The notes beneath the pieces are model-generated. The model made no database searches and had not been told where the DNA came from. It saw nothing but the letters and a program-made list of their open reading frames with translations. The translations under genes and the position numbers were made by a program. From the NCBI RefSeq assembly GCF_002878395.1, contig NC_061121.1, positions 131,857,709-131,921,708 of the forward strand: a DNA stretch of 64,000 nt. Direction: 5' to 3'. Within the stretch, counting starts at the first letter, position 1, and each line of letters begins with the position of its first letter. The DNA comes from Capsicum annuum (Eukaryota; Streptophyta; Magnoliopsida; Solanales; Solanaceae). This document shows, piece after piece, positions 21,739 to 64,000 of the stretch.

Positions 21739-21939
21739 AGTTCGGAACTAAAATATGCTGCGAAATTAAAAAAAATATCAATCCATGTCGTAAAAAAAGT
21801 ATTAAAATTGACTTTATCACTTTGCACAATATCTGTAGATTTTAATAAAAGGTTGATGCCCTTAAAAAAGTTGAAGTTGAGATTGGGCATTTAGATTTTA
21901 ATGGAAGATTGATGCCCTTAAAAGAGGTATTGGGCTTTT

Positions 21940-22400
21940 ATAAGTATACAATTTATATGGATTGTGCACTTATTTATTCAATATTGTGTACTTATTTAGT
22001 ATATAATTTATTTATTAATAGATATATATTTATTTTCATGGGAGAATTTACTTTTTTAAAAAATTGCACACTTTTTATTGTATAATTTATTTATTTATAG
22101 ATTGTATATTAAAAAAGTGCATAATATAATTAATTTTTTATTGTGCAGTTTTTTAGTGCACAATTCATTTATTTATATCGTTCATTTTTATGCACATTCT
22201 ATAAATAAATGGAGTGCACTAAAAAAGTGCACAATATATTAATTTTTTATTATGTATTTTTTTTAGTGTATAATTTATTTATTTATATGGTCCATTTTTA
22301 TGCACATTCTATAAATGAATGGAGTGTACTAAAACGAAAGTGCACAATCCAAAAATAATATATTATGCACAAAAGCTAACAGAAAAAATGACCAAATCTA
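21940..22400 (+). repeat. E1 left array of GTGCACT/AGTGCAC palindromic subrepeats
   Basis: Repeated units of about 110-120 bp combine TTGTGCAC or AGTGCACAAT words with TTTATTTATAGAT / ATCTATAAATAAATGG spacers. Near-duplicate copies are around 22140-22260 and 22250-22380. The words face each other and can fold into stems. Confidence 0.75.
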
Positions 22401-22511
22401 TATATAAGATAGCCTAAGTCCCAAAATCTTGAAAGTAGTGGCTAGAGTTGAAAATACAAACTTTTTGCTGAAACAACAATTAGCTTAAAAAGGCGAGATG
22501 AAAAGACTACA

Positions 22512-22622
22512 TCATTGACCCTCACCACCTGTATATGTTTCTTTTCCCTTTGATTCTTGAAGGGAGAGTTCAAAAGCACGAACCGCATCCTTATTCTCGT
22601 CTGCTGAGAATTGGTCCAAGTT
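22512..22622 (-). pseudogene. Possible captured terminal exon of an unidentified host gene
   Basis: On the minus strand a pyrimidine-rich stretch ends in TTTGTAG at 22629-22623, like a 3' splice site. It is followed by an open frame starting NLDQFSADENKDAVRAFELS and ending in GGEGQ and a TGA at 22512. It is more G+C-rich than its surroundings and unrelated to MULE or PIF proteins. The pattern (acceptor plus last exon plus stop inside a small TIR element) is what Pack-MULE capture leaves. I do not recognise the donor gene. Confidence 0.35.
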
Positions 22623-22859
22623 CTACAAAGGAGTTAATTGTGTGTCAAGGAAATGAACAAGCAAAAACTTTGAAATTTCTGTTTTCCTTACAAATTCTTA
22701 AGAAAAAGTGAATTCATTTCAAAATGGACTCTTTCCTGCGCTTCTCATCCTCAAAATAGCTGCCACCTTCCGGCCAAAACATTAGAAAACGAGGTAAAGA
22801 AAATCCCTACATTATAGCTGGTCTTAACCCAAATCATATAAAGATTATCTTTTATCCAC

Positions 22860-23082
22860 TGAATGTGGTTAAAAAAATGCACAATCGAAAAATAATATAC
22901 TGTGCATTTTTTTGTGCACAATCTATAAATAAATGGATTGTACACTAAAAAAGTGCACAATCTTTAAGAAAAAATTAAATTGGACCGTGAAATAAGTGTA
23001 TATCTATAAGTAAATAGATTGTGCACTAAATAAGTGTACAATGTTGAATAAAAAGAATTGTGCACTAAATAAGTGCACAATC
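22860..23082 (+). repeat. E1 inner palindrome cluster
   Basis: Several copies of GTGCACTAAATAAGTGCAC-type palindromes. The best is 23057-23081: arms ATTGTGCACT and AGTGCACAAT separated by AAATA. Others are near 22900, 22940 and 23020. The cluster ends where the PIF/Harbinger-like element begins. Confidence 0.8.
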
Positions 23083-23087
23083 TAGAT

Positions 23088-26000
23088 GTGTTTGGTATGA
23101 TGGAAAATATTTTCGTGAAAAATAAGTTGATTTTTTACTTATTTTCTCATGTTTTGGTTGGTGGGTGGAAAATATTTTTCTAAAAAATGTTTTTAGTTGT
23201 TTGATTGGTGAGAGAAAAAATAATTTTTGAAAAATACTGCTGAACAATTAACTAGTATATCAGGCAACTCAACATTCTGTCGGAACTAATTTAACCATAG
23301 CGAATTATACCAATATCGAGTATCAAAATATTACAAGACTCTAAAATTTAAGCAACTATTACTTACATAATTCAAGCTTCCTAATCAATTCCCACAAATG
23401 CACAAAAGAGATAAATTTGAAAGCAAATACACGATACATTATCAAAAACAAAAGAAAGGAGAGAAGTTTGGAAGCAAAAACATGATACATTATCAAAAAC
23501 AAAAGCGTGCATAATAGTTGCTTCCAAATCCTATGAAGCTAAACCAACCAATAGATGTCACTATTGGTGTTGCTTGAATCGTCCCAATCACACCTTACGA
23601 AGATTTTGATTTTTGACCATGAATGCCTTAGCTAAAGTGTCGCTTTGCACCAAATAATCAAAAGCATCACCGAGGAACTCTTCATTATAACCTTTCATTA
23701 CCATAACTTCTTCATACAACTTTGTCACATCTAGACGACTATCAACCATTCTATCGATTGCCGTTGCCACTTCTCCAAATTTTATTGATATATCACCTAC
23801 AACATCTTGCACCTCAAAAGAATGTTTTATTTTGCGACTTGCCTTGATTTGAGAAGTTTCGATTACTTGCACATCCTTTTCAATGGATGGTCCTACAAGG
23901 TCATTATTATTATCTTTCTCAGAAAAACTATCAAAATCTGTATCTTTGAATGATTTAGCACAATCTTCCCTAGCCTAATCATTTCCACACACAAGAGACA
24001 TTTCGTCAAACATTTTAATTTTTTTGTTGATGAACTTGTTATGATTGGAAAGTGCCTACAATACAAAGATTAGAGAAAATTTGGTGTCAAATTTATTTGA
24101 TTCTAATATATTAATGTAACATAAACAGTTGGGCTTAAAAATAAAATCAATGTTAAACACTTCACAGCTTCATAAAGAATCATTCACGAGATCCACACGA
24201 AAGTGACCAGGTTCGCGAGAACCCTCACTTATACCTCTAAATCCGCCCATGGTTAGGATAAAAAAGGGACACCATTTCTTGGAAGTTGTAGTTCATAATG
24301 TTGTATCAGAATAAAGTGAGTGTTGAAGTAGCCTTTTCAAGGACTTTGTGCCATGTCTGCCCTAGTTTCCTAGTATGACTAACATTAATATTCTCATATG
24401 ACACTGAGAACATTTTTTACACGAGTACCAAACTTATAGAATAGGAAGTGATGGAAATTTACAAGGTGTTGGCCTCTTTGTCAGTGTTGAACCAAATACA
24501 GGGCACCTGGTTAGTAGCAACGATCGAATGAACATGCGATGTTACCCCACTTATATTCATGAGAAGAAAGAATCATTCGCTAGAGAATAAATAGTAACAA
24601 TCACCAAATATGATCTTGAATGGCAGAATATATTGCAGCTGTTCTAATACACTAGTATAGTAGCAGAAAAAAGAAAATTCATTTGTTTCCTTTTCAGTTC
24701 AAATCAGCCATATAAGCTAAACATAGCACACTAAATTATCTTCAGCAATTTTTGACAATTACCATCTTTTAAAGCCAACAGTGGGCTAAATTAAACTGCT
24801 CAGTTTAAATCTAGAAGCATCACATCCTGCAAACAGGACATTCTTTTGTCTTTTGGTTACGAATACTGGAAGTCACAAACACCTCACTTCATTGGATGCT
24901 CATATAAATTTCATCTAAAGCTATTTCCAGGTCCTAATATATTCAAAAGATTGGAGTTGGTAATTGAATCTCAGCGAGGAAAATAAGCAATGATTAGACC
25001 CATAAATCAGAATAAGTTAGTACCAAGTATCCCATGACATTAGTTAAGATACGAATAAGCTGGTTCGGATACCAGGTTAATTAAAAAAAGTAAAAAAAGG
25101 ATATTGTTACGAAATAATACTTTGTCCTGATTACTACTAGAAGATGATTTTAGATTTAATCAGGTTAGAATTTGATGCATTTTGTTGCTGAATAAAGATT
25201 ACCAAATAAATCAGATTGGTAAAACCACTTTTTATTTTCACCAACTCTTACTTTTTTGTACAGCTACATAGGTTTGATTATGTAAAATTTGATCCATTTT
25301 CTCAATTAACGAAAGGCACGAAACAAATCAAATTGGTATAACCAATTCATGCTTTCACTAGTAACTTCTTTTTTTTTTTCGGAAATAAGGTTACGTACGT
25401 GTTATATAAACTACACCTAGTAGGTGCATTGAGGTGTGTGATAAAAAAAGCAAAATCTCAAAACGTCACTACACAGGCAAGGAGTAGAGGAATTTTATCA
25501 TATCAACTTCAATATACATTTGTCATCTTACACCAGTGTGCTAAAGTAAAGATGCATCTGTATTTGGTGTTCCTCAAGATTTCATTACACGGTTGTATGG
25601 ATCGTATTCCAAAGTGTTTCATGTCTCTCTGTTTAGATCTTTTTGTACCAGCAAAGAAGTTAACTTTTTGTTTTTCACAAATTAATGCCTCTAAAGCTCC
25701 GATAATTTTTCAAATGAAATTATAACAAATAAAACACGACTTACCATAAATGTAATCAAGATCTGTGGGATTTTAATAGTCCAAATTCAATAACATTAAC
25801 ACATCTTTGGGAAACAATATTGTTACTGGAAATATTCACAAGTCAACTTCATAAAATTGGCGTCAATTATTAAAACTAAGATACTCATATAGCTTCAGTC
25901 TAATGCTAATCGCTCAACTAACTCACAATAACTTATCAATTTTCATAGATAAGTTAACCCATATTTCAATTTTTGAGCAAAATTGAACTCAAATAAGAAA

Positions 26001-26430
26001 TTCAAATTTTAATTTTTGAATAAAATTGGCCTCAAATCAGAAATCCAAACAAGCAAAAGAAAAAAAATTGAAGAAATTTTTGACCAAACACCATAAAAAA
26101 AATTAGTTATGAACATACCTTTGAAATTCTTGCACTGGGGGAGAAGAGAGAGAGAAGGGAGAAAGCCCTAAAATTGAAGATGACGTGATCTGCTTGTGGG
26201 TGCAATGAAGAAGAGGGGTGGGGGTATAATCCTATCAGGGAGGGTGCGACTTCATATTTTTTATCTGGAAAATGACTTTCCTTGACTTATCAGGAAAGTC
26301 ATTTTCCCTCAAATGATGAAAAATAAGTCACCTTGAAAAATATTTTCTCAAAATTTTTTTATAACCAAACATGAAAAAATGAAAAAATATTTTCTAGAAA
26401 ACATTTTCCATCATACCAAACATACCCTCC
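23088..26430 (-). mobile_element. PIF/Harbinger-like element (ORF1 only), about 3.3 kb
   Basis: The left end at 23088 reads GTGTTTGGTATGATGGAAAA. The right end read inward on the minus strand reads GGTATGTTTGGTATGATGGA, so long similar TIRs (about 40 bases or more, with GAAAATATTTTC-type interior words) bound the region. The GGGTNTGTTTGGT start is typical of PIF/Harbinger and Tourist elements. Inside is a Myb/SANT-like ORF1 gene; no DDE transposase remains. The expected 3-bp target duplication could not be identified. The element interrupts E1, so it is younger than E1. Confidence 0.72.
23588..26225 (-). pseudogene. Myb/SANT-like protein gene (PIF/Harbinger ORF1), partial
   Basis: The last exon on the minus strand (24060-23588) encodes an acidic linker (TDFDSFSEKDNNNDLVGPS) and the conserved C-terminal helix region LDVTKLYEEVMVMKGYNEEF followed by LGDAFDYLVQSDTLAKAFMV, ending with a TGA at 23588. 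This matches the C-terminal half of the Myb/SANT-like proteins encoded as ORF1 by PIF/Harbinger transposons, which bind the TIRs and help the transposase enter the nucleus. There is one in-frame stop (GND*ARED, about 23977). At 26225-26117 a CT-rich non-coding segment ending at a GTATGTTC donor looks like the 5' UTR exon. The Myb DNA-binding exons expected between are not recognisable, so the gene is probably internally deleted. Confidence 0.7.
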
Positions 26431-26442
26431 ATAAAAAAATGA

Positions 26443-26546
26443 ATTGTGCACTTATTTAGTGCACAATCTGAACTTCACTTTTTTTGACGTCGTCCAGATG
26501 TCTTCCGTTAAAATCTAAAGGTATTGTGCACTTATTAAGTGCACAA
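26443..26546 (+). repeat. E1 right palindrome pair
   Basis: Two near-perfect palindromes flank the subterminal block. At 26443-26467 the arms are ATTGTGCACT/AGTGCACAAT around TATTT. At 26524-26546 the arms are TTGTGCACTT/AAGTGCACAA around ATT. Their spacing from the TIR end parallels the palindromes of E3. Confidence 0.85.
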
Positions 26547-26627
26547 AGCCTCTTTTGATATTTTTTTTATATGGCATAGATTGATACTTTTTTTTAGTTT
26601 CTTGACATATTTTGATTCCGGACTAAT

Positions 26628-26808
26628 CTTTGAGGAATCTTGCTCTTTTTACTTTTGACTTGTTATGGCTGAATGAAATTGTTTTTTTTTCTAATATCAG
26701 TTTGCTAACCATCGCTTGATTGATTTTTTTTATGATGAGTGAGGTGTGTCATGTCATATTTGTGTGAGGCTTCTCATTATTCGACAAGTGCACATCCATG
26801 TCATTATT
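26628..26808 (+). repeat. Diverged second copy of the GAPC 3' UTR
   Basis: The stretch from TTTGAGGAATCTTGCTCTTT to TTCTCATTATTCGACAA aligns colinearly with 21574-21734 of the real GAPC 3' UTR. Shared words include CTAACCATCGCTTG, TATGAGTGAGGTGTGT (with one change) and GTCATATTT. It starts four bases after the E1 right TIR and is followed by another TIR-like end. No GAPC coding sequence precedes it. Confidence 0.85.
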
Positions 26809-26813
26809 ATTCG

Positions 26814-26870
26814 AGTTCGAAAGCAAAATATGTCATGAAACTAAAAAGTATAAATAATATAAATATCAAT
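26814..26870 (+). repeat. Third copy of the E1-type TIR end
   Basis: AGTTCGAAAGCAAAATATGTC at 26814 followed by ATGAAACTAAAAAGTATAAA matches the outer 40 bases of the E1 TIR in left-end orientation. It could be the left terminus of E2 or a duplicate of the E1 end carried with the 3' UTR copy. Confidence 0.65.
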
Positions 26871-27301
26871 CTTTTAAAATTAATTACACTTTCTCCTACC
26901 TTTTTAATTAGTTTACTTTCTGTTCCTATTAATATACATCTGTCAGCTGACATATACATAGCAACTTTACCGACATATATATAGCAATTTTTGTATATGC
27001 GAATATGTTAAAGTCCTTCAAAAAAGGAAATAACGAATTTCCTGCCATTAATAATGTAATTAACACAACTAATTTTAATAATTTAATTATTGCATCCCTT
27101 AAATTATGTAACAACAACTGAATTTTAAAATTTGAAAACCACAAATACATAAAACTCAAATTTGATGAAAAATTGTAAATTAAATACAATTTGAGCTCTT
27201 TTTTTTTTTTTTTTGGAAAAAAAATTTATTTGAAATTAAAGAAGATGAATATTGTTATTCTTTTAAGGTACTCTGGTCAATGAAGATTCAAAATAGAATA
27301 T

Positions 27302-30300
27302 GTGAATTATAAAAGTGAAGGGATCGTTGTTGCTGAATCAGTAAATTATTCGAGGTTGATTTCATCAATTGCTACCGAATTAAATATTGACGAAACTCAA
27401 AAAAATATTGATGTATGTTATGTTGTCGACGATAATGAATCACCTTTTCATATCCAGAATGATAATAACATTCGATTGTATGTCGAGATAAAAAAATCTC
27501 AACCAGTGAGTGACGTATCCATTGTGCATATCAACTATTGATAAATGTGCAGAGGACATAGAGTTCGATAGAGAAACGTGATCTGTTATTTGCGTGGAGA
27601 GTGTTGTATCTGATGCTATGGCTCTCGTTGTTGCTGAGACACAAAATCAATATACTTTATATGTGCCAGAGTTTGAAATTGATAACTTAATATGTGATAG
27701 TAAGAGTATTGATATGAAGGTGAAACAGATGTATAAGGATAAAAAGACGTCCGTTTCAGTGATGTCAAAATATATGGTGAATCGTGGATTCAATGTCAAA
27801 GAAAAAAGTTCAAACAAAAAAGGTAATATGCTATCTTGTTCTGTTAGTAAATTTATTCTTCATGTGTTTAAATGCTAAATTGAACCATATTTTATAACTA
27901 TAAATATTAATTTATAACTGAGTAACACATAATGTTAATTCTTGTATGTCATAGATTGTATTTATTTTTCTGATTATAATGTTATATAGAGTTGTATGAA
28001 ATTTAGATTGTTGCGAAAGAAAATTGCAAAAAATAAAATCTGGGTGTCATATGAAGAACTGATTGTAACTTAACATATACATTCTATGTATTTTGTATAT
28101 GTTAAGCTATACTACTGTAAATAGACACGTGAAAATTCTATTTACAATTACAATTGAATAAGTTGTTATCTGGTTGCATATACATAAGCATTTTCATGTA
28201 TATTCTAGTGTAACAAACATAAAATTTCGTCAATATTTTCTACAATAAAAAATATTTTATAATAAGTCGCATGTACATGGACTGTATTTATAAAAAATGC
28301 TTAATGAAACAATTTTTGTTTTGTTGATTGTTTTATACATATTGTTTAGCATTATACATATTGTTTGGCACTAACAATAATCTATGTTTAATTTGTTTAT
28401 AATTGTATAGTAGATTTTCTGTGTTGTATATGTGTTTTATACATATGGTTACATAAACTGTGATGTGTATGTGTTTTTTTATTGAAGTATAACGAATTTA
28501 TAACATACAAAGCCTAAAAATTTATGAATCGATACAAATTCTAATCATTTGAATGACTTTTTTATATTTCAGCTATGTCCTCGGATGCTACAATGAGGAT
28601 TGTAAGTGGACGTTGGAAGCATCTAGTTATAAAAAAATAAATATTTTTATAATTTGAAAATTTAATCCAAAACATACATGCCCTTTGAGTGATAGGGTAC
28701 TAAGAATATTTTGGCGACTACTGCTTTTGTCTGTAAATTCATGGCTCCTAAGTTAGTTAACATAAGAGAAGGCACACACCCCGGAACATCATAAAAAATG
28801 AATGCTGTATATGGTGTGGATATAAATTATATAAAGGCATGACGTGCAAAGGACCGTGCCATAGCGAAGTTTAGGGGCGGTCCGATTGATGGTTATAGAC
28901 AGATGTTGAAATACATTTATATGTTAAACAATGTGTATTCTAATTCACACATTGCAATGCACAAGTCATGAGATAATCGGTTCATGTATTTGTTTATAGC
29001 GTTGCATCCCATGATAAGGATTTTTAGTATTGCAGACCCGTTGTTGTTGATGGTGCGTATTTAAGTGGATCATATAAAGGGACTTTCCTCTCAGTAAAAA
29101 CTTTGGATGATGCAGGTATGTAAAAAGTTAACATATATTATTTTTTTAACATACATTGTATTACATGTAAATAGTTATTTAAGTGTATGAAAAAATGATT
29201 TATACCAATTTTTTTTATTTTTTTGAAAAAAAAACTTTGTGTTGTCTTTTACTAATATAGTTTATACATAACATAGGATACATATTACCGCTTGTGTATA
29301 TGGGTTTGGATACTGAGAATGACAACTCATGGACATGATTTTTCAATCAGTTCAAAACTACATTCGGAGAACGTGACAACATATGTGTTGTATCTAATAG
29401 GACCAAAAATATTATCAAATTTGTCAGTGTTGTACATCCAAATATCCCACATCTTGCATGCATTTGGTATCTCTGAAAAAATATTTGTAGTTACTTTCGT
29501 AAGAGTAAAGAAAGTATCAGTGATTTGTATTGTTCAATGGCTAAGGCTTATAGAAAAGATAATTTTGACTATCTAATGAAGAAAATTGAACAAGCTGATT
29601 CGAGAGTGAAAAAATATCTACAAGAAGCTAAATATGAAAAGTGGAGTAGGTGTCATTCACCGGTAAACAGAAGTTGGATGATGACTTCGAATATTGCTGA
29701 ATATGTTAATGGGTGTTTGGTAGAGGCTGGGAATTGCCAATATATGAATTCTTATAAGAGGTGCGAATGTTATTTTATTCTTGAAACTGTCAAAATAGTG
29801 AGATAACTTCTTATACAAGTACGATTTTGGGACATAAATTTGAAGAAATTTTAACTCTTAACGGTGTGAAAGTTTTGAGAATGACGGTATGTATAAAATT
29901 TCAATTTTTTACTATGTATTTATATGTAGTATTTGATTTACTGTAAAAAATTAAATTTAATTTTTTTTTTAGAAAAAATTGCCTGGTTGAATTTTGTTTT
30001 TATTTGTTCAGGTGGAGGCTTCCTCAATCTATATATACTCGATTTATGAATCTGGAAGGAGGTACATTGTTGATCTTGAAAGTGGTTTATGCAACTGTGC
30101 ACGATTTTAAATTGATCAAATACCATGTTCTCATGCTATCATTGTCTTGAAGTCTAAACATGTAAAATTTTTTTGTCCATGTTATTCAGAATACTACAAG
30201 CCAAATACTTTGGTGAAGACTTATGAAGTTTTAATTATTCCGATGTCAGATAAGAAATATTGAAAAATTTTCAACAGTGTATATGAGGATGAAGTGTTAC

Positions 30301-30458
30301 CACTGATATACAAAAGACTTTGGGGAAGATCGAAGAAAGAGAGGAGGAAGAAGTCCAGCAAAACACTTTCATTAAGCACAAACCGTTGTGGACAATGTAG
30401 ACATGAAGGGCACAATAGGCATTCCTGTAATTTTTTTCAAAGGAGAACTGACTTATAG
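27302..30458 (+). pseudogene. MuDR-family transposase (MULE), intron-containing, broken
   Basis: The N-terminal part lies at 27302-27541. The MuDR N-terminal domain is at 27594-27810, with IDNLICDSKSIDMKVKQMYK and MSKYMVNRGFNVKEK. Its zinc-binding continuation is at 28573-28710, with LGCYNEDCKWTLEAS and HTCPL. The DDE core starts near 29035, with RPVVVDGAYLSGSYKGTFLS (first Asp), ends at a GCAG|GTATGT donor near 29115, and resumes at 29275 with ILPLVYMGLDTENDNSWTWF. ORF pieces 29292-29806 cover the later core. A SWIM zinc finger, CNCARF...IPCSHAI, lies near 30090-30140. A C-terminal zinc knuckle, CGQCRHEGHNRHSC, is complete at 30380-30425. Several in-frame stops and frame changes make it inactive. 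Role in family: cut-and-paste transposase. Confidence 0.88.
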
Positions 30459-31820
30459 TTTTTCTATACTCTTGAAGAGTAATCATTGAATTTTTGTTAT
30501 CAATTTTTTAGAAATTACTTCATTGAACAGTTTTAGTTTCGTATTTATATGTTTAAATAAATTTGAGTTTACTTCAGTTTAAAATTTAAGTTTGAAGTAT
30601 TTTTTTCTTATTTGTGTTGTGTATGTATTTACAACGTTAATTAGATGTTTCATTATTGCTTGTACACATCTCAATTAGGACAATCAGTGTAATTGTCAAC
30701 GTGAGTTATAACACTATATTTTAGTAGAAATAAAATTATATGTATATTTAAACAGTTATATATATAGAGATTATATAGTTATGAGATGTTGATGTTAATA
30801 TATCTAACAGTGTTATGTATATAAGGTGAAATATACCTAACACATTGTATGTATGTTTTGCAATATACATAACACATTTATACATAACCTTTGTATAGAC
30901 TTTAACACATCTATGTATATTATCTAAATTACAAATATAGTTATTTATATTATCTAACATACATAAATAAGTTAACTCGTATTATCTAATATACATACAG
31001 TGTCATACATATAGTGCTATGTATATGTAGACACATACACACATATAAAAAAAATACAGTTTATTAGTTTTTCTATATTCTTGAAAACTAGTCATTTGGT
31101 TATCATTATCAAGTTGTAATTAATGATTTTATTTAATAGTGTAGTTTGTGTGTTCATAAGTTGAAATAAATATAATTCTTATCCAGTGTACGATATAAGT
31201 TTATTAATTGATCGTTTCATTGACGATTCCACATGCATTTCTTCTTTCATAATGTTTGAAATCATTTGTGGATAATCATGACTTAACTAAGAGGATCCAA
31301 GTAGCTATTAATGTGCATAGTTAAAATATGTATACATTAAAGTTATGGTACATGTACATATGTAAAAATAGATATTTAATGAATTCGTAATTAATTTGCG
31401 TTGTATATAAATTCTATGTATAGGCAACCATATACACATTTACAACCTGTAAGAATTATATGGGATTGACAAATTTATATAAAAAATATTTAGAATTGTT
31501 GTACAGTGGTTATATGTATAATGTTCAAGCTATGAAATTATTTTTGCAAACTTAAATATATGTATATCCTATATTACACATATAACAATGTATGTATATG
31601 CAGTCAGAAAATCTATGTATATGTACTCAAACAAATAATTTGATATCTAATGTACAAGACACAATAGTCATGCAATTTTTTTTTACCCATAATTCATATG
31701 CATTGGTTAAAATGTGTTATAACAGTATTGTACCATACAAAACATCTTAAGTAGTTTAGCATTCAACATTCCTAATAAATTCATAGGAAAAAGAAGTCTT
31801 TGCCATAATCATCTTTAAGA
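30459..31820. repeat. Intergenic zone of E2 rich in TATGTAT/ATACATA palindromic words
   Basis: No gene. Words such as GTTATGTATATAAGG, ATACATAACACA and TATGTATATTATCTAA recur throughout. They also recur in the introns and flanks of the Ulp1-like gene at 32800-33350, 35520-35880 and 37560-38060. Confidence 0.75.
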
Positions 31821-45180: not shown

Positions 45181-45189
45181 CCAGTATCT

Positions 45190-46598: not shown

Positions 46599-46602
46599 AG
46601 TT

Positions 46603-51570: not shown

Positions 51571-51594
51571 TATTGGTTTCGAGGAAGCTGTGTA

Positions 51595-52185: not shown

Positions 52186-52554
52186 TGTCGTTGAGGATTC
52201 TAATGGAATGGATAGGATGAAGTGTTAACAATTTCCTTGAAATTTATATGCATGGTTAAGGTAAATATTTTCGTTACGTTATTGAGTTTAAGTTATATAC
52301 ATCGTTATTGTTAAAATTCTTTTAGATGTAACGGTCAAAGACATTCCTATACTGTTCATTGTTCCATTTACCTACCTAAACTACCACCGATGTTGTATTA
52401 ATTAAACCTCACATCGATGCTGAGTATTGTTGTCACTTGAAAATAAATAGTTGGTCAACTTTGTGTGGATATGTATTTTAATATAAAGGTAGTGATAGTT
52501 TGAATACATAAAGGAAAATAATGAATAGTTAAGGCATCGCTAAGAAATTATAAT

Positions 52555-52640
52555 TTAGATGTGTACTTGACCATTAACTGAAAAATTTATAGTATAATTA
52601 GATGTGTACTTGACCATTAACTGAAAAATTTATACTATCA
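52555..52640 (+). repeat. Tandem duplication, 43-bp unit
   Basis: TTAGATGTGTACTTGACCAT followed by TAACTGAAAAATTTATA occurs at 52555 and 52598, nearly identical. Confidence 0.9.
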
Positions 52641-54831
52641 AGCTACACAAAAAGAATATCCATAGGTGATTAGTGTAAATATCTAATTACGATAATAGTG
52701 TAATAACTTAAATTATATCAGTAATTTATATTTCTAGAGGAATTATTATTAGTGAAAGTTCTAATGTCAAACTTAATTAATAGAAGATAGTAATACTATT
52801 AAAATAACAGCTGGTAAAACTTATAATAATTGTTTCTTATGAATTTATTTAGTGCGTAATCTAAAATGCTAGATAATTGTTGGACAATTTAAAACCACTC
52901 CTTTTATTCTCATTGTATATAATTAAAATTATCTCTATAGATTTCAAGTACCTTTCGATAATGAAAGCAGGTATAATTGTGTGTGCAATTATATGGATAG
53001 TCCGGTGTATAGAGGAATGTAACCAATAAAGTTTTAAGAAATATGTAGTATAACATTAAATGATCTTCAATACGTAAAGAAAAATTGATACTTTGTTTTC
53101 TATTTCATTGTAATTTTATTGTAGTTTGTATGGACACCCTATGATGATATCCTTGACACTCTACCTCCCCGTTGTAAGTCTGATAGACAGACATGGCGAA
53201 CACATTCAGAGATCTTATGTTTAGATAATATAGAGTGTCACGTAGCAGATCAAGTGATGCGACATTTTAGTCGTCCACAACATGTTCCACTATTTCCTAG
53301 TTGGGATCCATACCATTATAAGCTTGATGACAGAAATAAAGTTGATCAGAGTTTTCTAGCTCTGGTAAATAATAGTATTGATCATTGGAACAATTGGTTG
53401 TATAGGGTTGAAGAGACACATGGCAATGCAGACTTGACTACATATGTAGAGTGGTTTCAGCATCATGGATGGTTGCTATTATGCAACCCTACTCGTAGAG
53501 CTTCTAGCTAAGTGTCGATGGCGCCTTCACACTTAACGATGACCAGAGGGCTCCAACATTTATATCAGTAGGCATTACAGTGGACGTTGGACCCCGCACA
53601 CCATGCTTGTGGTACTTATGTTAGTCAGCATATTGTGGGTATTTTGACCAGGCTGATTAGGTTCATGAGGTGTCCAGTTTCCAGACATTGAGTATGTGGA
53701 GCCACTTGTGAGTCCTAGATGAGAAGGGAGAGGATGTGGATGTAGACGTGGATGTGGACACGGATCTGGAGGTGTTGTACCTATGCAGAGGTATGGAAGA
53801 GGATGGGGTCGTCTTTCTGTTAAGCCAAAGCCTCAGATAAATCTAGTTGTAGATCCCGAGCTCCACCCAGCAACAGAGGTTGAGTATATTCCAGATATAG
53901 GTACAGCTCAGATACCGTCATTTGATCCATCACTGTATACGCCAACTTGTTCATCCATGCCACAGCCTCATCACTTCTCTACATATATTGCACCATCTTG
54001 GGTTGATGAAGAGGTTCTCCAATCCTATGATGACATGTATTATTGAGATGTGGCTACTCCTTTACATTTGAGTTTTGGGTCGATAGAGTTTGGAGATATG
54101 TCAGTTAGTATTAACAATAACTTGTTTATCTTTTTTTCTCTGCTAATTTTTATCCTTATAATACATTGTGTTATTAGTCTCAGGATCTACTAAACATGTC
54201 TTTGTCCATACCAGTTGGGGTTTCTGAGGTATCTGCCCATTCTATGCCACATGGAGAGGCTGAAGAGATGGAGGAGCAGGTAACTATTAACTATATGCAG
54301 TTATAAATTTGTGAAAATGTTTATTAAATGTAGATACTGATTTTATTATTCATTAGATACTTCATTTGAGTCTTTGTTCCATCTCCGAGTATCCATCCGA
54401 ATCAGCGGTGCCTTGTACTTCTTAGCCGGTCACTAATCACACTATTGGTATGCAGGTCAATAATTACAACACTAAAGATAAAATTGCTTGTTGTTTGTAT
54501 TTTTAATCAGTTAAAATTTGTTCGTCATGTATTTTTTTAGGTTCTTGAGGCAACACATTCTATTATATCAGATGCATCTCATGCACCAACTGACGTTACA
54601 AAGGAGACACAAGTTATTATTATATTATCTCATAATTATTTATTATGAACTTACTTTATATTACGTATTTATGTATAATTATTTTTTACAGGATGCGGTA
54701 TATAAGAGCAATTGTAAAAAAAGCGTTATGCTGATCTGGTAGCTACTATTATGAGAAAATATCACAACGACGGAGATGATGATGCTCGTGGGGGGCTTAG
54801 ACCATATACGACGATATGATTTAGGGCTTGT

Positions 54832-55140
54832 GGCACGTAGTTATGTTACTTATTTAATCATGAAATTAATTATTTATTGTAAAATACTTCTTTGTAAATA
54901 TCATTTTTGTAAATATATTTTGTGAATGTAAAATCTTTTAAATTTTATTTTGCAAAAAAGAACGATTTGAAATCACGTGTCGTATAAAGATGTCAACACA
55001 TAAATTTAAATAATTAAATTTAATACATAAACTTAATTAAAAATTATGAATTTAATATTTGAAAAATGTAAATATAAAAACATTTCAATGAAAATGTAAA
55101 GTTTATACGATAGCTACACCTACAGTTTTTACTCTTTATA
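54832..55140. other. AT-rich spacer after the PMD gene
   Basis: Probably the 3' UTR of the PMD gene and spacer. Nothing else seen. Confidence 0.4.
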
Positions 55141-55154
55141 AATAGATAATTTTA

Positions 55155-56055
55155 ACTCTTTGTAAATAGATAACTCACTTAAAATGTGAGTTTTACAAAA
55201 AAAAAAAGGAGGATAACTCACCTTTTTAGTGAGTTATACACTTTTTTTTGGATTGAATGATAACTCAAATCTGTACGATATCTGCACCTACAATAAATAG
55301 ATATCTCACTTAAAATGTGAGTTTTACAAAAAAGAATAAGGATAACTTACTTTTTAGTGAGTCTTACTGTTTTTTTTGGACTGATTGACAACTCAACTTT
55401 ATACATATCTGCACCTATCTGAACCTACAAGTACTCTTTGTAAATAGATAACTCACTTATAATGTGAGTTTTACACTCTTTTTGAATTGACAACTCAACT
55501 TTATCTGGACCTATAAGTATTCTTTGTAAATAGCTAACTCACTTAAAATGTGAGTTTTACAAAAAAGAAGGACAACTCACTTTTTAGTTAGTTTTACACT
55601 TTATTTTAATTGAATGACAACTCAAATCTGTACGATATCTGCACCTACAATAAATAGATAACTAACTTAAAATGTGAGTTTAACAAAAAAGAAGAAGGAT
55701 AACTCACCTTTTTAGTGAATCTTACTCTTTTTTTAGACTGATTGACAACTCAACTTTGTACATATTTACACCTATCTGAACCTACAAGTACTTTTTATAA
55801 ATAGATAACTCACTTAGAATATGAGTTTTACACACAAAAAAGAAGAATAACTCACTTTTTTAGTGAGTCTTACACTTTTTCTTGGATTGATTGACAACTC
55901 AACTTTATACAATATCTACACCTACAAGCACTCTTTGTAAATAAATAACTCACTTAAAGTGTGAGTTTTACAAAAAAAAAAAAAAAAGGACAACTCACCT
56001 TTTTAGTGAGTTTTACACTATTCCATAACTCACTTAAAATGTGAGTTTTACCAAA
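55155..56055 (+). repeat. E3 palindromic tandem array (AACTCACTT/AAGTGAGTT)
   Basis: Eight units of variable length, 80-150 bp. Each has a palindrome of the form ACTCACTTAAAATGTGAGT (near 55165, 55301, 55447, 55529, 55660, 55803, 55943 and 56023). Most also have a second palindrome ACTCACC-TTTTT-AGTGAGT, then GACAACTCAA, GATATCTGCACCTACA and CTCTTTGTAAATAG words. The same palindrome occurs in both E3 TIRs and at 60420-61300. Confidence 0.92.
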
Positions 56056-56281
56056 AAAAATATTGAATATGAACACAATTTTTACAAAAAGCATGAATTT
56101 CTTAACTTCTTCACTTTTTTCTTTACATTATAAATAATACATTTTGAACATGAACAAAATATTTTTTTTACAACAATGAATCACAAAGCTCAAATGAAAA
56201 ACTGCTTTAGTATTGGAAAAAACAAACATGAGGGTATTTCAAAGAACGCTGCAAAGGTATTTGGGTGCTACACCAATTTAT

Positions 56282-56715
56282 CAGGAAAAAATGCTATGGA
56301 CGTATTCGTCCGCTACAAATTAAACCTATTTCTATTTATCATGATTTAGAAATTGTTGGGAATATTATTGTAGGATAAGTTTAGTCCTCTAAAATTAAAG
56401 ATTCTATTATTTGGGGTGAAACACTCCAGTGGTCCAAACTATATTCTAAACGGTGTGATTATGAGGTTTCATGTCGCTGGCATGGTTTGACCATTCCACA
56501 GGCAATTTCTGTGACTTTTCAAACATGTAAATTAAGGAATAAAGAATAAGTTATTGAGAGCCTGAATTAGGAAATATTAGAAATGAAAAAAATATTGGAG
56601 CTCTTTCATGCATTAGACGATCTGAAGTATCAAAGAGCAGATGAAAAGAAGCACTGAAAATTATTCAAAGATCAAAGACTACAAAAAGATAATACCTATC
56701 CAGTATACCAATAGT
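56282..56715 (+). pseudogene. Degenerate unknown ORF inside E3
   Basis: One plus-strand frame stays open apart from a few stops over about 430 bases. It gives protein-like sequence: GRIRPLQIKPISIYHDLEIV, DSIIWGETLQWSKLYSKRCD, and an acidic/basic helical end with ELFHALDDLKYQRADEKKH. I do not recognise a family. It lies between the palindrome array and the transposase and could be an accessory gene of E3 or a captured fragment. Confidence 0.35.
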
Positions 56716-57034
56716 AAACGAATGAAGAAATATTTACCTTGAACATTGAGTTTTGGAGTACCTTATTGTTGTATAAATCAACTGAATTTAGATGGGCTAA
56801 CACAACAAACTGATTTAAATTGGGGTCTAAATTATAGCAACAAAGAGGAAGATGATGTAGTTCCTAAACAAACGAAAAAGATATGTAATTTTTTATATTA
56901 TATGTTTTGTTGTACTCTAATGTTATAAAAATTAAATATTTCATCTCTGATTAAAATACTGATGCTATTTATTAATATGAAACTACATGATACAATAACA
57001 TGTAAATAAATCATAACAACACATACAATTGTCA

Positions 57035-60020
57035 TTATCTCCTAGAAGTACTAGCACTACCGGAGGTATTTCATGCTCCATATGCATTACGCTCTTTTGA
57101 TAGACAATTACGCTTATCATGTCCTGGCTGTTTACCAGTAGAACATTTATGAGAAAGACTACTTTGTGAAACATCCATTTCATTGGGAGTGCGTGTGTTT
57201 GACTTGACCTTTATTTTGTGCAAAAAAAGATTATTTGCAATCATTGGGAACGGACTATATGGCCAATAGTTCTAGTTACCAAGTGGATTCAACTTTCCCA
57301 CGTAAACCCGCATGTAGCACGTCACAGAGAATTCTAATGCAATATAATCCTACACAGGATTTCCAACAAACTCAAGCACCCTAATTGCATGAGAATATAA
57401 AAAGTGATTTGATTTTCATTTACCGTACGTACATGATCTTTGCGTCTCATTAACAATTTATTTGTTAACACCCTTTCCATGGTGGGAGTTGAATGTCCCA
57501 ATTTCAAATGTGTTATCTGGCATAAGATAATTTTGGATACTGTGCATTGATGTCTTTTTTCTATATTTCTTAAATTTTTTGAATGGATTTGATATCCATT
57601 TTTGTTTGTCACTCAATAATTGTTTTACATACTTTGATCTCTAAATAAAATGATCCACAATTATATTGTAAGACATTTTGACCATTGCAATCACTGGTAG
57701 TCCCTTAGCTGCCTTCAATAAGCTATTGAATGACTCAGAGCAATTTGTTGTAAGCATGACCCATCTTCTGCCGCCATCCTTGTGCAAAGTCCATTTTTCC
57801 AATTCGATATTCATAAACTACTCATATGGTGGCAAGTGTGTCTCTTTTATCAACTCCATTAGTAACAAGAATTTTTTCTCGTGGGTAGCAGTTGCAGCTG
57901 CCTATAGGAGATTGTTTAGTTGAATAATTTTGTACACTCTCTGATAATTCGCCTTTAAGTGCCTTAAACAGTAGTGGATATAGGAAAATGGATCGTGCTA
58001 ATTACGCTCTATCGAGACACTTCCAAGTATTCCATGATATTTGTTAGATATCAAGGTAATACCTTGACAAGCACACACAACATACTCATGCGAACAAAAA
58101 TTTAGTCCATGTATCAAGGCTCTCATTCGCTACTATAGCAAAAGCTAATGGAAATATGGATCCATTTCCGTATATACCTACCATAATCAATAATTTAATA
58201 TTATACTTACCATATATATATGTATCGTCTATTGATATCACTGGCTGAGAATAACAAAAACCGTCAATACGTGACTTAAACATCCAAAACACATAATTGA
58301 AAATATGTTCATCAACTCCCTCATGTCGTTTAAATTACAATTCATCAATGAATCCTGTATTGAAATATTTCATAGTAGCCATGAACCTTCACAATTCACG
58401 AAAGGAGCCCTCTCTATTTTCATAGACTAGTTCAAAGGCATGCTTTTATCCAAGATAAGCCTTGCGATGACTTATTATTTTGTGGTATTTATTGAGAATG
58501 GATGATTGGAAATCTTTGATAGGATACTTATGAACAATTACGCATTACAATTATAAATAAAATAACGTATTAATTTGTATCTTCAGATAAATTTTAAAAA
58601 ATAGTACCTTGGTGTCTTTTCAATATATGGTACAGGAATAGTTGCAATCATATTTATATCCAAATTGAAGTGACCTCCGCGACAGTCACCTATATTACAA
58701 GTGTGCTTTTCAATGTATTTTTTAATTTTCATAACTCATTACTACTATCCTTAGTAGCACAAAGTTTGAATAAACAACCTTGATCTGCACGCTTGCAATA
58801 AATTCTAAACATCTTTTTCCGGCTTAACGACAAAGAATTCTCTACCTTCTTTAAAATGATTGAGCCTAACCGCTCTTTGTAGATCTTTTTTTTATTTAAA
58901 CAACATCTTGCTTGCAAGATAAAAATTATCATTTAGAAAATCCACCGGTTCACGTCACATATTCGTAGAATTAAAATCATTTTCATGAATATCTATAAAA
59001 ACATCTGATCCTTCCTGAAAATGATGAAGAAATAAAATTTTATTAGAATAAAAATGAGGCCTATTGATTGGTAGTGACATTGGTGCCGATGTGGAATTGA
59101 TTTTTGTTGAGGATAAGGGATCATGGACATGACTCTTTGTTCAGAGTTTGACAACACATCATTGTCACTCGATGATGAGTCATAAGGGCATTCACCGCCC
59201 TCAGAATTATTAGGCTCACTATTATCGCCCTGTGACAATTCACCATAATTTGGCTGGTCACTATTTTCAATATCATCTGGCACAACATGTTTACCTCGTG
59301 TGACATTATCCCTACATTTCAAATAACAAAATAATTTTAATACATTTCAAAAGCATAAATAATAAATACATGAAATTAACCATCATAAATTATTATCAAT
59401 GATATTTTAGGCCTACCGATAATAGTCGTCATTATCCAAACTCAGTAATAAAGGAACATTTATAGATGTTCCAGCATTGTCCATCCATTCAAGCTGAGAT
59501 GATTGATCATAATTATAATGATTTCCAAAAAATTCATCTTTATTCCTGTCACGCAGAGTTAAGCCCCTAAATTAAATGTAACATATGAAATATGAAATAG
59601 TCAAAATTATTGAAAATATTTAATATCAAGAATAACACAAATTAAGAAACATCACCAGTCATTTTCATTTAAAGTATCGTTCAAATAAAGTATTGAGGAT
59701 TGTGTTGGCATGTTACTCGACACGATGTATTGCGGGGCATTCATTTCAAAAAAAGTATTATACTGAGTTAAACGAGCATCAACAATATTCGTTGGATCAT
59801 CAAATTGTGTATACAAATTCATCTGTGTTTGAGAGTGCGCATGATGATTTTTATGCTTCTTCTTAAAATAAAATTGAAGAATGCTCAGCTTTATTTGACT
59901 AGCATAGTCACAAGGAGCCCTCAGAAATTCAGTCAATGACTCATTGTCACTGATAATTCATTCTCCATAATTTACCAATCCTTGTGATGCAAATGAATTT
60001 GAATACTGTCCAACTATAAA
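57035..60020 (-). pseudogene. MuDR-family transposase of E3 (MULE), broken
   Basis: The N-terminal exon lies at 60020-59652 (NSFASQGLVNYGE, ESLTEFLRAPCDYASQI). An acidic linker lies at 59322-59060, with SQGDNSEPNNSEGGECPYDS. The MuDR domain at 58932-58640 has NSLSLSRKKMFRIYCKRADQ and, in a shifted frame, KHTCNIGDCRGGHFNLDINM. The DDE core at 58550-58086 has PVISIDDTYIYGKYNIKLLI (first Asp) and GNGSIFPLAFAIVANES. The later core at 57960-57640 has WVMLTTNCSESFNSLLKAAK. The C-terminal zinc knuckle, CSTGKQPGHDKRNC near 57150, has lost its second cysteine. The gene ends at a TAA at 57035. It differs clearly from the E2 transposase, so E2 and E3 are separate MULE lineages. Frameshifts and stops make it inactive. 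Confidence 0.88.
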
Positions 60021-60394
60021 TAAATCAAAATCATCATTTTTTTTTCATTCTTCTAAAAATAGATTCTACGAATTCTCTGTAACCAATTGAAATTAGATAC
60101 TTGACGTTGAACTTAGGAGAGATACTATGATATATTGTATTTTCCTCGTGGATAATTTTTTCATCCCCAAAAAGTGCAACTTTAACACTTTCAATATTCT
60201 TTCTTTAAGCTTTGATTAAGTTTTGAAAAGAAGAATCTAATTTGAACAAGTTTGAAAAAGAAAAATTGAATTTAAAGAAGAAAAATTCAGTTTCAAAAGA
60301 GAAGTTGAGTGGATAAAGAATGAAGAGTCTTGAATGTATACTTCTGTTTAAATAGGAGAAAAATGAAAGTTGGTGGAAAAAGTTACTTACACAC

Positions 60395-60501
60395 AACTCA
60401 TATATTTTTAGAGTTATAGTGGATAACTCACTTAAATAATTAGTTATGCATTTTATTTCTACATAACTCATATAATTAGTGAGTTTTATATGATAAATGT
60501 G

Positions 60502-60548
<47 letters not shown>

Positions 60549-61300
60549 TGAGTTTTATAGAAATAAGAAGGATAACTCATTTTGTTTTTTGTGAATTTTA
60601 CACTTTTTCTAATGGTATTTTTTAGGACTGACAAACGTTTTTGATGAACATGTCAACTTTGTATGATATATTTTGAAACTACATATAACAACTCTCTATG
60701 TGTTTTTTTTTGAAATTTTTTTTAGTTGTATGGTATATATAACAATTAATGAGCATATATTCCATCCACGCATCTAGTTGTGTAGTATATAATTTATTTT
60801 GCATAATTTATATATTTTTAACACCATATTCATATTTCATATCACTAATAAAGTTATGCACTTATCACACATATTTTAAGAGCTATATTTAATGGATAAC
60901 TCATTTTTTTTTACTTATTTTGAATAACTCACACAATCAATGAGTTTTACTTCCTCCATTTCGTATTAGTTGACCTTCTTTCTAAAAAAATAAAACTTTA
61001 AAAAGATAAATTGAGTGTTCACTTAATATGTAAGTTTTATAACGTAAGTTCTATAACTTTTATTATATTTATATAGAAAAAAATGCATAACTCAGTTTTT
61101 AAGTGGGTTATGTAACTTTTATTATATAACTCACTTTTATGTAACTTCTATTATATAACTCACTTTTTAATTGAGTTATGTAAAAAAAAATGTATAACTC
61201 ACTTTTACTTTTTCAATATTTTAACTCTTTTTGGCACCTGACGTTAAAGACAATTCATATAATTCACTTAAAAAGTGAGTTAAGCAAATTATGATCACAT
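60395..61300. repeat. E3 right subterminal zone with AACTCACTT palindromes
   Basis: Dispersed palindromic words (ATAACTCACTTAAATAATTAGTTAT at 60422-60446 and similar forms near 60465, 60900, 61090, 61150 and 61262) in AT-rich DNA. No gene supported. Confidence 0.8.
60505..60545 (+). repeat. (TA)n microsatellite
   Basis: About 20 uninterrupted TA dinucleotides. Confidence 0.95.
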
Positions 61301-61362
61301 TTTATATACATGACATATTTTAGTACTTTTTTAGTTTCATGGCATATTTTGGTTTCGGACTC
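61130..61362 (-). repeat. E3 right TIR
   Basis: Reverse complement matches 38950-39149. Read inward it starts GAGTCCGAAACCAAAATATG, the same outer sequence as the E1 TIR (AGTCCGGAATCAAAATATG). Confidence 0.8.
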
Positions 61363-61432
61363 TTATTATTCTTCTTACTCCAGCTCTTCTCTAATTGGCA
61401 TGTCATACTTTTTATTTTCTAATTTGTTTACA

Positions 61433-61466
61433 CATGTTATTTGATTTCATAAAATCAAATAACATG
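61433..61466. repeat. Perfect 15-bp inverted repeat with 4-base loop
   Basis: Arms CATGTTATTTGATTT and AAATCAAATAACATG around CATA, no mismatch. It lies just outside the E3 right TIR. It may be a MITE remnant or cruciform site; no terminator function is expected in plant DNA. Confidence 0.9.
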
Positions 61467-62040
61467 AATAAAACAGGGTGAAAAAATTAGTAATGTCGGA
61501 CTGGTTCCTTTTGAATCATTTGCATTTATTAGATGAAAAATTAATAAGAAATTATTATATAGAGTGAAAAATTATCATTGCTTGGATAGTTGAATTTTCG
61601 GCAATTATAGGTGAAAATGTTAAAATTAGAAGAATTAAAAAATTTAATATTTACATTGAAGAATTTCTAAATTTTACATGTAATTATTCAAATTCGAGTT
61701 TATCATACCAAATTTTTTTTCATTTTTTTATTACTAAAGATTATCTAATTTTAAAGTTTATCACAAATAGATTAGTCTTTTATTTATTTATCACTGTAAA
61801 GTCGTTCCTTTTTAAATTACCACATAAGAGCAATTTATTTTAGTTTTAAACTGATATATTTTATAATTAGTTTATACTAACTTGAGAAAATTGAAGGAAA
61901 TGTGTCTTTTTTAGTATTGAAAGAAAGATTTGTGATATTGACCAATTTAAAGGGTCAAACATAATTAGAAAATTTGATCAAGTTAATTGTGGACTTGATT
62001 AATATTTTTAAAACTTTTTAATTTTTTTAAAAATTCAAAT
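61467..62040. other. AT-rich flank of the E4 gene
   Basis: No gene seen. It presumably contains the promoter of the following gene, but no clear TATA/start pair can be chosen in such AT-rich DNA. Confidence 0.4.
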
Positions 62041-64000
62041 CAATCCACACCCTTCTTCTCTTCAAATCAACCGTCCCTCCCCCCTCTTTCGATAGTTTCT
62101 CTCAAGCTTCTCCAAACCAATAGTTCTGTAAATTTACCTCTTCAATCCTCGACGACATCAACCTCCGATGATAAATAGTTGGACTTTGAATTTCTTCAAC
62201 CGTCAATCGACGTGACAACATTGCTTTCCGATGACAACAACTTCGAGTTCTTCATTGCCCCTTATTTTTTTTCACAGGTAAAAAATTAGGGTTTTTTAGT
62301 TATAAAGAAAAAGCGGAACTTGATCCAACTTCTCTTCCAGTATTGGTTAACAATTTCAATATTTGTTGCTTAAATTTGAAATTGAGACTAAAAAGAATCC
62401 TAATATCTGGTATTTCTTCTCTTCTCTTTTCGGAGTAAAATATGATTTTTTGTTGTTATTGTAGTTCTTATTGTCGAACTATTAATTCGATTTATTGGTG
62501 TCTGTTGAGTTTTTTGAAGTTTGATTTTTGTTGTTTCTATTTGTACAATCAAAACAACATGTTGGTGTTTTTGGTCACAGTTGATATTGTTGGTGTATGT
62601 GTTGTGTTAGTGTTGCTGGGTTGATTTATTATTGTTCTTGAAAAAATGGTGTATTTGATATTAAATGGTGATATTGCCGTTGTTCTATTGAACAAAATCT
62701 TGACTATCTGATGCAACAGATTTACTAGCTGATGCAATAAATGAACCATTTGATGCAATAGATGAACCATCTGATACAACAAATTTACCATTGAATGCAA
62801 CTGATGAACTATCTGCTGGGTGAAATCCTATCAACTATTCCAACAGGACGACATGTCCAAGACTTAGATTTCTTTCAGCAGATCATTCATCTGTTGCGAG
62901 AGATTACCCTTCTATTAGAAGAAACCCAAACAATGTTGATAGTTGATAACAGTTCCAACTGGTGACTCGTATGTTACAACAGATGAATGATCTATTGCAC
63001 AGACCAATCATCTATTTCAACAGATGAATGATCTGTTGAAAGAAATCACAACAATATTAAAAATGTTTTTATTATTTCGAACAGATTACTCATCCGTTGC
63101 AAAGGTTAGTTATATGTTGCAACTGATAACCCACCTATTACAACAACTGCGTGATCTATTCAAACTAATATTTTATGTGTTGTACATGTTAGATTTACTG
63201 TTATCATTTTTTAACGATGCATTAATCAATTATAATCTTTTCTATTTTCCTGTTATTTTCAGATAATATGGCTCCCAAAAGAAAAGAAATCCAATCAAGT
63301 CCTAGTAAAGGAATAAGTGAAGCAGCTAGGCTACATCCACTACTCTATGAGCTTGCTTTACAAGCGATATCACACTTAGAAGCAAAAGATAATGAGCATA
63401 GGGATGAGGAATATTTCCAAAGAGATAATTTAAATGCTATAGCCCTTCTACTGAAGAGTTGGTCAAAACCTTCAGCATTGATAGTTATTTCGCGAGAATG
63501 CAGTGCGATGGTGCTACAGATTTAACTGGCGATTCGGTGGTTAAGTCAGACATGAGAAAATCTTTTGACACCTTCAGAAAAATACTTCGAGATAAAAAAT
63601 TGGATGCTTATTTCAGGGACAACTGCTTAGGGCAATATCTTGATTTGCCAGAGGAAAACAATGCTTATTTCTAAATGTCCATGGTATATGATCTTTTCAA
63701 CGTAGGTTTATGTATGAAAATGAAGATAATATGGATGAGGTGTGGAAAAATTACTGTGGTATCCTGTTTTTTTTTGGTTGGAAGGAGTTTGCCATAGTTA
63801 CTGGACTAAAATGTTATCCTTCTTCTTCTTATCAGCTTATACTTATTATAATCCAAAAAAGTACCCCACATACCCAAAAAAGGTAAAGGCGAATCAAGTT
63901 ATGGTGATGACTTGGTGTCCCTTATTGGTCCAAGCTTCAAAAATAAAAAATTGATTGAAGAGTTGAAAGGTAAAAGACTTTCAAAGAAGTACAAACAATC
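62041..64000 (+). pseudogene. E4: DUF1985/Ulp1-like gene, 5' part, runs off the right edge
   Basis: A CT-rich leader (62041-62277) ends at a CACAG|GTAAAAA donor. A roughly 1-kb intron ends at TTTTCAG (63262), and the ATG lies at 63268. The protein opens [20 protein letters not shown], a start I recall from pepper Ulp1-like repeats. After a frameshift near 63445 it continues with [20 protein letters not shown] and [24 protein letters not shown] at 63672 and a frameshift near 63700 precede DEVWKNYCG-like and FFGWKEFAIVTGLKCYP words of DUF1985. The C48 protease end should lie beyond base 64000. The E2 gene has a different N-terminus, so the two are separate lineages. At least two frameshifts and one stop make it a pseudogene here. 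Confidence 0.78.
62690..63155 (+). repeat. E4 palindromic repeat (CAACAGAT/ATCTGTTG) in the 5' intron
   Basis: A 20-24-bp spaced repeat of GATGCAACAGAT / GATGAACCATCT / GATGAATGATCTGTTG words. Clear palindromes lie at 63018-63038 (arms CAACAGAT and ATCTGTTG around GAATG) and 62978-62998 (one mismatch). An inverted version, CAGATCATTCATCTG, lies near 62878. All are confined to the intron. Confidence 0.85.

Follow-up and report, generated by a model that had tools for sequence, protein, structure and literature searches.

Private arrays of two-armed motifs in neighbouring Mutator-like element regions of pepper, candidate target sites for element-encoded proteins

We find that four neighbouring regions (E1 to E4) in a 64,000-nucleotide stretch of the Capsicum annuum genome (C11:131857709-131921708 of the 3.21 Gb pepper assembly searched; hereafter, the window), three of which share the terminal inverted repeat (TIR) of a Mutator-like element (MULE), each possess one dominant, largely private dyad, comprising opposed arms around a gap of set length (3-4 bases in E2) and variable sequence. 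Arrays of these dyads (cassettes) are a real, genome-wide feature, the E2 dyad being known from the window and from one further locus (L024). We propose that the cassettes are arrays of binding sites for a DNA-binding protein encoded by the element family, comparable to the targets of the VANC proteins of Arabidopsis VANDAL elements, and that this protein would act as a dimer to keep its family free of silencing, a proposal that our comparative analysis leaves evenly poised between right and wrong.

An earlier reading of the window, made from its sequence alone, had claimed one private repeat family per region, and this observation is borne out. When up to 3 mismatches are allowed across the two arms, dyads lie predominantly in their home element (E1 9/10, E2 16/18, E3 21/22, E4 7/9), and dyads of fixed spacer (3-4 for E2, 2-3 for E3) number 7, 12, 21 and 8 in the window for E1 to E4 respectively, against means of 0.05, 0.15, 0 and 0.8 over 20 Markov resamplings of 1-kb blocks. 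A motif-free scan recovers the same four families (E3 21 copies, E2 13, E1 11, E4 9), with E3 ranked first. Maxima in four shuffles were 9, 7, 6 and 6, such that the 9 copies of E4 are not above chance by count alone, and the loose count of E4 dyads similarly falls within the shuffle range (9 versus 6-14), whereas their local density at fixed gap exceeds it (7 in 500 bp versus at most 1). The scan also returns AT-rich families, located mostly in E2 (20, 20, 10 and 9 copies) and possibly of low complexity, together with dispersed weak families.

The palindromic form originally described holds in part. When each half-site is allowed up to 2 mismatches, the gap is sharp in E1 (7 pairs at 5, 1 at 4, no other below 15), E3 (17 pairs at 3, 2 at 2, no other below 19, using the arms first proposed) and E4 (9 pairs at 5, 1 each at 2 and 7, no other below 14), whereas that of E2 is broad (6 pairs each at 2, 3 and 4, plus many other lengths). 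Furthermore, most copies are imperfect, and perfect palindromes with the arms first proposed are scarce (3, 0, 1 and 1 in E1 to E4). The arrays grow as tandem repeats, with periods of 39/110 bp in E1, 31/63 bp in E2, 128-357 bp in E3 and 21/42 bp in E4; since they are tandem and the reverse arrangement is about equally frequent in E2 (gap 10) and E4 (gap 0), the centre of the dyad is ambiguous in these two regions. Restriction to non-coding DNA, also claimed initially, is a strong tendency with exceptions: half-sites with at most 1 mismatch occur in coding DNA in 8 of 48 cases in E2, where 49% of bases are coding, and in 1 of 43 in E3, where 31% are (P about 4e-6 and 3e-6, respectively, for array copies that are not independent, and with a coding mask drawn by hand from protein matches and open frames). 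Likewise, the supposed lack of cross-occurrence between elements needs qualification, given that E3 contains 6 copies of the E2 core TACATAAC, with one more inside the retroelement inserted there, as well as 2 of the 18 E2-like dyads.

Across the genome, exact dyads of E1, E3 and E4 type (gaps of 0-10 or 0-12 permitted; E3 query arms TAACTCAC) number 538, 1,300 and 16,215, against 0, 6 and 9 for reversed-pattern controls. The E4 dyad is thus about 12 times commoner than that of E3, and about 30 times commoner than that of E1. Among the first 50 copies listed for each, 47 of the E1 dyads have a gap of N5, 44 of the E3 dyads one of N7 (TAACTCAC/GTGAGTTA) and 48 of the E4 dyads one of N5. E3-type dyads fall into two subtypes, CACTT/AAGTG and CACAA/TTGTG.

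On C1 we sampled 30 stretches surrounding clusters of E1- or E3-type dyads; two places are each represented by a pair of these stretches. Separately, L001-L004, which overlap L014, were excluded from counts. A single dyad type (at most 2 mismatches) is present in 27 of the 30; L010 and L032 contain E1 and E4 dyads, and L024 contains E2 and E3 dyads, in each case with the types more than 1 kb apart. We read these mixed stretches as neighbouring elements, the ends seen being those of the E1 element in L032 only. Many clusters are short elements of about 1.1-2.2 kb, of both E1 and E3 type, with dyads adjoining both ends or TIRs. Target duplications of 9 bp at the TIR ends, which support MULE-type insertion, are perfect in 4 of 25 loci (L016, L018, L019, L032) and have one mismatch in 2 (L026, L031); none were read in the remaining 19. 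Where neighbouring dyads are no more than 130 bp apart, the distance is 38-43 bp in 55 of 108 cases for E1, 62 of 127 for E3 and 11 of 30 for E4 (with 7 more at 21). Between two E1-type clusters, open frames occur at L005:2238-5911 and L006:139-2441, which by reading of the frames we take to be pararetrovirus-like.

A cassette has changed while the genes have stayed when E3 is compared with an element at C1:161720500-161735000 (L007 and L008; hereafter, the C1 element). The latter possesses E1 dyads near both ends, a gene for a plant mobile domain (PMD) protein and an E3-like transposase, in the gene order of E3. Both elements therefore combine PMD with a MULE transposase, that of the C1 element being assigned by similarity to E3 and not by Pfam, the Pfam scan there having covered part of the sequence. 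At the nucleotide level the transposase regions are 75% identical over 4.1 kb and the PMD pieces 64-73%, yet E1- and E3-type dyads number 12 and 0 in the C1 element versus 0 and 21 in E3, and the non-coding stretches compared have nothing in common beyond the terminal repeat and some short repeats, most of them simple. At the protein level, PMD (43-49% identity in the three longest translated matches) is less alike than transposase (63% over 167 amino acids, with 8 stops), which parallels the lower conservation of VANC relative to the VANDAL transposase, VANA (PMC5735166). The similarity of window E1 to the C1 element covers the arrays and 200 bp at one end (78%), and E1 is consequently best read as non-autonomous kin of that element. 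Because E3 and the full E1-type element have related genes but different dyads, the sites appear to be element-specific and replaced between lineages. This agrees with the amplified and replaced recognition sites envisaged in the sequence-only reading, as do the constancy of gap length alongside a variable gap sequence, and the position of the cassettes in or adjoining elements with DUF1985 or PMD genes.

That reading also knew of no described MULE feature of exactly this kind, a view contradicted in kind by the VANDAL system. According to published accounts, VANC proteins, which contain DUF1985, act on private motifs and their expression demethylates matching families; the motifs of VANC21 and VANC6 are non-coding and grow as tandem repeats, and VANC21 binds introns, intergenic and terminal non-coding DNA (PMC5735166). 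The same VANDAL regions are reported as targets of RNA-directed DNA methylation (RdDM; PMC10398659). The pepper cassettes resemble this system in belonging, for E1 to E3, to MULE-like elements, in consisting of private short motifs located in introns, intergenic and terminal DNA, in their tandem growth, and in differing between related elements (PMC5735166, PMC10398659), while E2 and E4 additionally hold pieces of DUF1985 genes, those in the window scoring below the Pfam cut-off. On this comparison, E2 and E4 would fit the VANC model directly, and the full E1-type element and E3 would have PMD in the place where DUF1985 is expected. These latter differ from VANDALs, described as non-TIR elements (PMC13317346), in possessing TIRs, and in carrying PMD with no DUF1985 found.

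Under this hypothesis, the two-armed sites of a cassette, 21-23 bp long and for the most part confined to a single element family, would be read by a protein of that family, probably PMD for E1-type elements and E3 and DUF1985 for E2 and E4. Given the two-armed plan, the reader would bind as a dimer, and the distance of 38-43 bp between neighbouring dyads would suit side-by-side binding. Once bound, it would keep its own family unsilenced, as VANC does for VANDAL elements, and cassette and protein may co-evolve to evade host small RNAs or competing elements. Several observations are consistent with such a role: arms and gap length are conserved amid variable flanks and gap sequences, arrays occupy the ends of elements, the space separating genes or exon blocks, or a position 5' of a gene, and small copies with no detected gene retain them. 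Furthermore, cassettes are found beside the candidate proteins elsewhere: in L032, 16 dyads of E4 type (up to 3 mismatches) lie 5' of a DUF1985 gene; in L024, E2 dyads lie between pieces that match the joint DUF1985 and Ulp1 (Peptidase_C48, hereafter C48) gene; and in L023, E3 dyads flank a fragment similar to the C-terminal portion of the PMD protein. At most other C1 clusters examined, no DUF1985- or PMD-type gene is present. Some gene models even translate the dyads, namely P0091 of C. annuum (related to the PMD protein of E3, but matching no Pfam domain) at its end for E3, and the DUF1985 protein P0141 of C. chinense at its start for E4, with P0121 likewise but more weakly. One further candidate, L025, considered as E3-type dyads around a DUF1985 gene, was dropped: the match consists of the first 145 residues of P0081, which recur in L031, and a reverse transcriptase is present in the element. 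In sequence searches of the PDB, the C48 part matches only Ulp1/SENP proteases, and the PMD protein has no match.

More tentatively, and with less than an even chance of being correct, PMD could represent a second, independent class of sequence-specific anti-silencing factor encoded by transposable elements, with lineage-specific PMD and 23-bp dyad swapped together while transposase and ends were kept, by which lineages would evade both one another and the host. If so, the host silencing factors MAIN and MAIL1 would be relatives of a counter-silencing system of transposable elements. A promoter motif, 'DOWN', is reported to be associated with genes dependent on MAIN/MAIL1 (PMC7156037).

A number of points weigh against the proposal of VANC-like arrays. 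VANC motifs are directional, single 8-9-mers that in the arrays of VANC21 share one orientation, whereas the pepper motifs are palindromic dyads of 21-23 bp with opposed arms; the main texts of two VANC papers do not mention palindromes or dimers (PMC5735166, PMC10398659), and the two-armed plan is accordingly a difference from the motifs described. E2 dyads lack the 38-43-bp spacing (0/10, with 4 at 32). Of the 6 transposase copies on C1 with at least 64% identity, only that of the C1 element lies within 15 kb of an exact E1 dyad; among the matches listed, there is none so close to the 5 others (64-83% identity), and the 2 of these covered by the E3 matches listed also lack an exact E3 dyad. 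Moreover, the E1-type side of the comparison consists of a single full element, that on C1, for which no right TIR was identified. Window copies are unlikely to be active, since the genes of E2 and E3 are broken, and the predicted protein structures are of unusable quality (mean pLDDT, the predictor's own confidence score, 38 for DUF1985-C48 and 50 for PMD). PMD is not known to bind DNA. In Arabidopsis, furthermore, the PMD proteins MAIN and MAIL1 are reported to promote silencing (PMC5418596). Finally, dyads adjoin the TIRs in small copies, as expected of sites used in transposition.

This last point introduces the principal alternative, that dyads are subterminal sites needed for transposition and bound by transposase or an accessory protein, which we consider unlikely though deserving of serious attention. 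Small E1- and E3-type copies (about 1.1-2.2 kb) keep dyads by the TIRs at both ends, some with clean 9-bp duplications, and short subterminal tandem repeats are reported in 10 of 12 mosquito MULE families with long TIRs (PMC5225508). However, two elements with a transposase region 75% identical have wholly different dyads, the common TIR is a likelier transposase site, and arrays also occur internally in E3, between exon blocks for the main array of E2, and 5' of the DUF1985 gene in E4. An origin as neutral minisatellites grown within ageing elements is improbable. In its favour, tandem-repeat growth is clear, array copies are not independent and the E2 and E3 genes of the window are broken, but the same dyad recurs with differing flanks and gap sequences in separate clusters at many genome sites, and four largely unrelated sequences follow one common two-armed plan of 21-23 bp. 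Least probable is that pairing between arms, whether in RNA or in extruded DNA, feeds silencing small RNAs or fold-back structures, as the sequence-only reading had also entertained: the arms are complementary with short loops, and both-sided changes in E3 exceed independence (47 versus about 26, 30 of the 47 being complementary), but 8-9-bp arms are too short for dicing, a set gap length is not required of a hairpin, and, in the tally of E1, E3 and E4 dyads, changed pairs are mostly one-sided and uncompensated (144/154, 282/329 and 149/170, respectively), despite the reported targeting of VANDAL non-coding regions by RdDM (PMC10398659).

Other MULEs offer partial precedents. VANDALs with a Ulp1-carrying VANC (Kaonashi, KIU) also act via specific motifs according to a 2026 review (PMC13317346); the E2 gene resembles these in fusing DUF1985 and Ulp1 (C48) within a MULE, and differs in its host, pepper rather than Arabidopsis, and its dyad cassette. 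For PMD-MULEs, the authors speculated on anti-silencing (PMC5418596), yet the elements reported there are PMD-transposase fusions from grasses and Amborella, whereas E3 has separate genes on opposite strands, a eudicot host and a DNA cassette. Mosquito MULEs have family-specific short repeats near their ends that are retained in non-autonomous copies, but these are described as 9-15-bp tandem repeats within the TIR and not dyads, and the account available mentions no internal arrays (PMC5225508). Searches of the open-licence PMC literature listed no plant MULE with a palindromic cassette of the pepper kind. What appears new, judging from sequence comparison, is the pairing with PMD and the dyad form, as a variant of VANC-type target arrays. 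If our proposal is correct, the VANC idea, known in Arabidopsis, would extend to pepper and to PMD-bearing elements, for which such a use had only been speculated upon (PMC5418596). Three of the dyads are defined short sequences with hundreds to thousands of copies, which makes binding and methylation directly testable, and sister elements with related genes and different dyads provide a natural swap experiment. The features of the window are given in Table 1.

Table 1 Features of regions E1 to E4 (window positions)
Feature	Position	Strand	Details
E1, non-autonomous MULE-like element	21739..26624		TIRs 21739-21799 and 26564-26624 (inverted 61-bp match, 79%)
E1 cassette, left	21984..23080		dyads TTGTGCACT-N5-AGTGCACAA
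E1 cassette, right	26444..26546		2 perfect dyads adjoining right TIR
E2 left TIR	26806..26852	+	stretch at 26824 used as TIR query
E2 MULE transposase pieces	27284..30455	+	Pfam MULE PF10551, 1.5e-07 at 29246-29482; outer limits are open frames
E2 dyads between its two genes	30800..31024		
E2 DUF1985 and Ulp1 (Peptidase_C48) gene, broken, with introns	31824..38596	-	DUF1985 36991-37362; C48 within 32170-32700
E2 cassette	35549..35858		array ATACATAAC-N3/4-GTTATGTAT, period 31/63; between DUF1985-C48 exon blocks
E3, PMD-MULE	38962..61369		TIRs 38962-39023 and 61271-61369; long terminal repeat (LTR) retrotransposon inserted from 39148 to at least 49000
E3 cassette, left subterminal	39013..39122		
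E3 PMD gene, broken	50109..54837	+	PF10536, up to 4.7e-27; relatives
E3 cassette, internal array between PMD and transposase genes	55155..56062		
E3 MULE transposase, broken	57074..59957	-	PF10551, 7.3e-07 at 58095-58241; outer limits are open frames
E3 cassette, right subterminal	60425..61281		
E4 cassette	62693..63127		CAACAGAT-N5-ATCTGTTG, 21-bp array
E4 DUF1985 gene, start only, cut by window edge	63214..63998	+	partial PF09331, 26.6 bits; 513 protein matches; tblastn block

The initial description of four MULE-like elements stands for E1, E2 (at its left end) and E3, which have a MULE-like TIR in common, while E4 is represented only by the start of a DUF1985 gene that leaves the window, with no Pfam transposase found at 61300-64000, its part inside the window. 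The TIR core CAAAATATGTCATGAAACTAAAAA (query 26824) matches at 26591 and 61328 with 1 mismatch each, at 38972 with 5 and at 21749 with 6; further matches lie at 61299 (5 mismatches, adjoining the E3 end), and at 34908 (4) and 23324 (6), which are not element ends. We found no right TIR for E2, and no target duplication flanking E1 or E3 in the window. A six-frame search of 21900-26799 gave no Pfam domain in E1, whether MULE transposase, DUF1985 or PMD; DUF1985 was likewise not found in E3 (49000-60950), nor PMD in E2 or E4. The DUF1985 pieces of the window score below the Pfam cut-off of 35.1 (E2 33.3, E4 26.6), with relatives both over it (P0011, P0023, P0108, P0141, P0199) and under it (P0002, P0008, P0189).

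The exon blocks of the E2 DUF1985-C48 gene were derived from pepper relatives, and all 83 protein matches of the E2 query are from Capsicum. One C. annuum protein, P0001, matches the window in 8 pieces (6 in E2 and 2 in E1), 7 of them at 96-100% identity and 1 at 68%. This gene model is probably a chimera, since it joins E2 exons with E1 pieces (22515-22622, 23594-23974, 31893-35467), and one E1 piece recurs in P0066. Just upstream of the left-type TIRs of E1 and E2 there is a direct repeat of 82% identity (21601-21735 and 26654-26787), which suggests local duplication or tandem insertion. The LTR retrotransposon inside E3 has Gypsy-type domains on the minus strand and LTR pieces 86% alike over 2.4 kb, and the PMD gene region contains a perfect 69-bp tandem duplication (51595-51735) adjoining a 90-bp repeat. 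Lone long palindromes outside the four families are present at 26267-26307, 28069-28106 and 61433-61466 (arms of 16, 13 and 15). Elsewhere in the window, the stretches at 13058-15821 and 173-595 are, from their frames, presumably remnants resembling a Copia retrotransposon and a long interspersed nuclear element.

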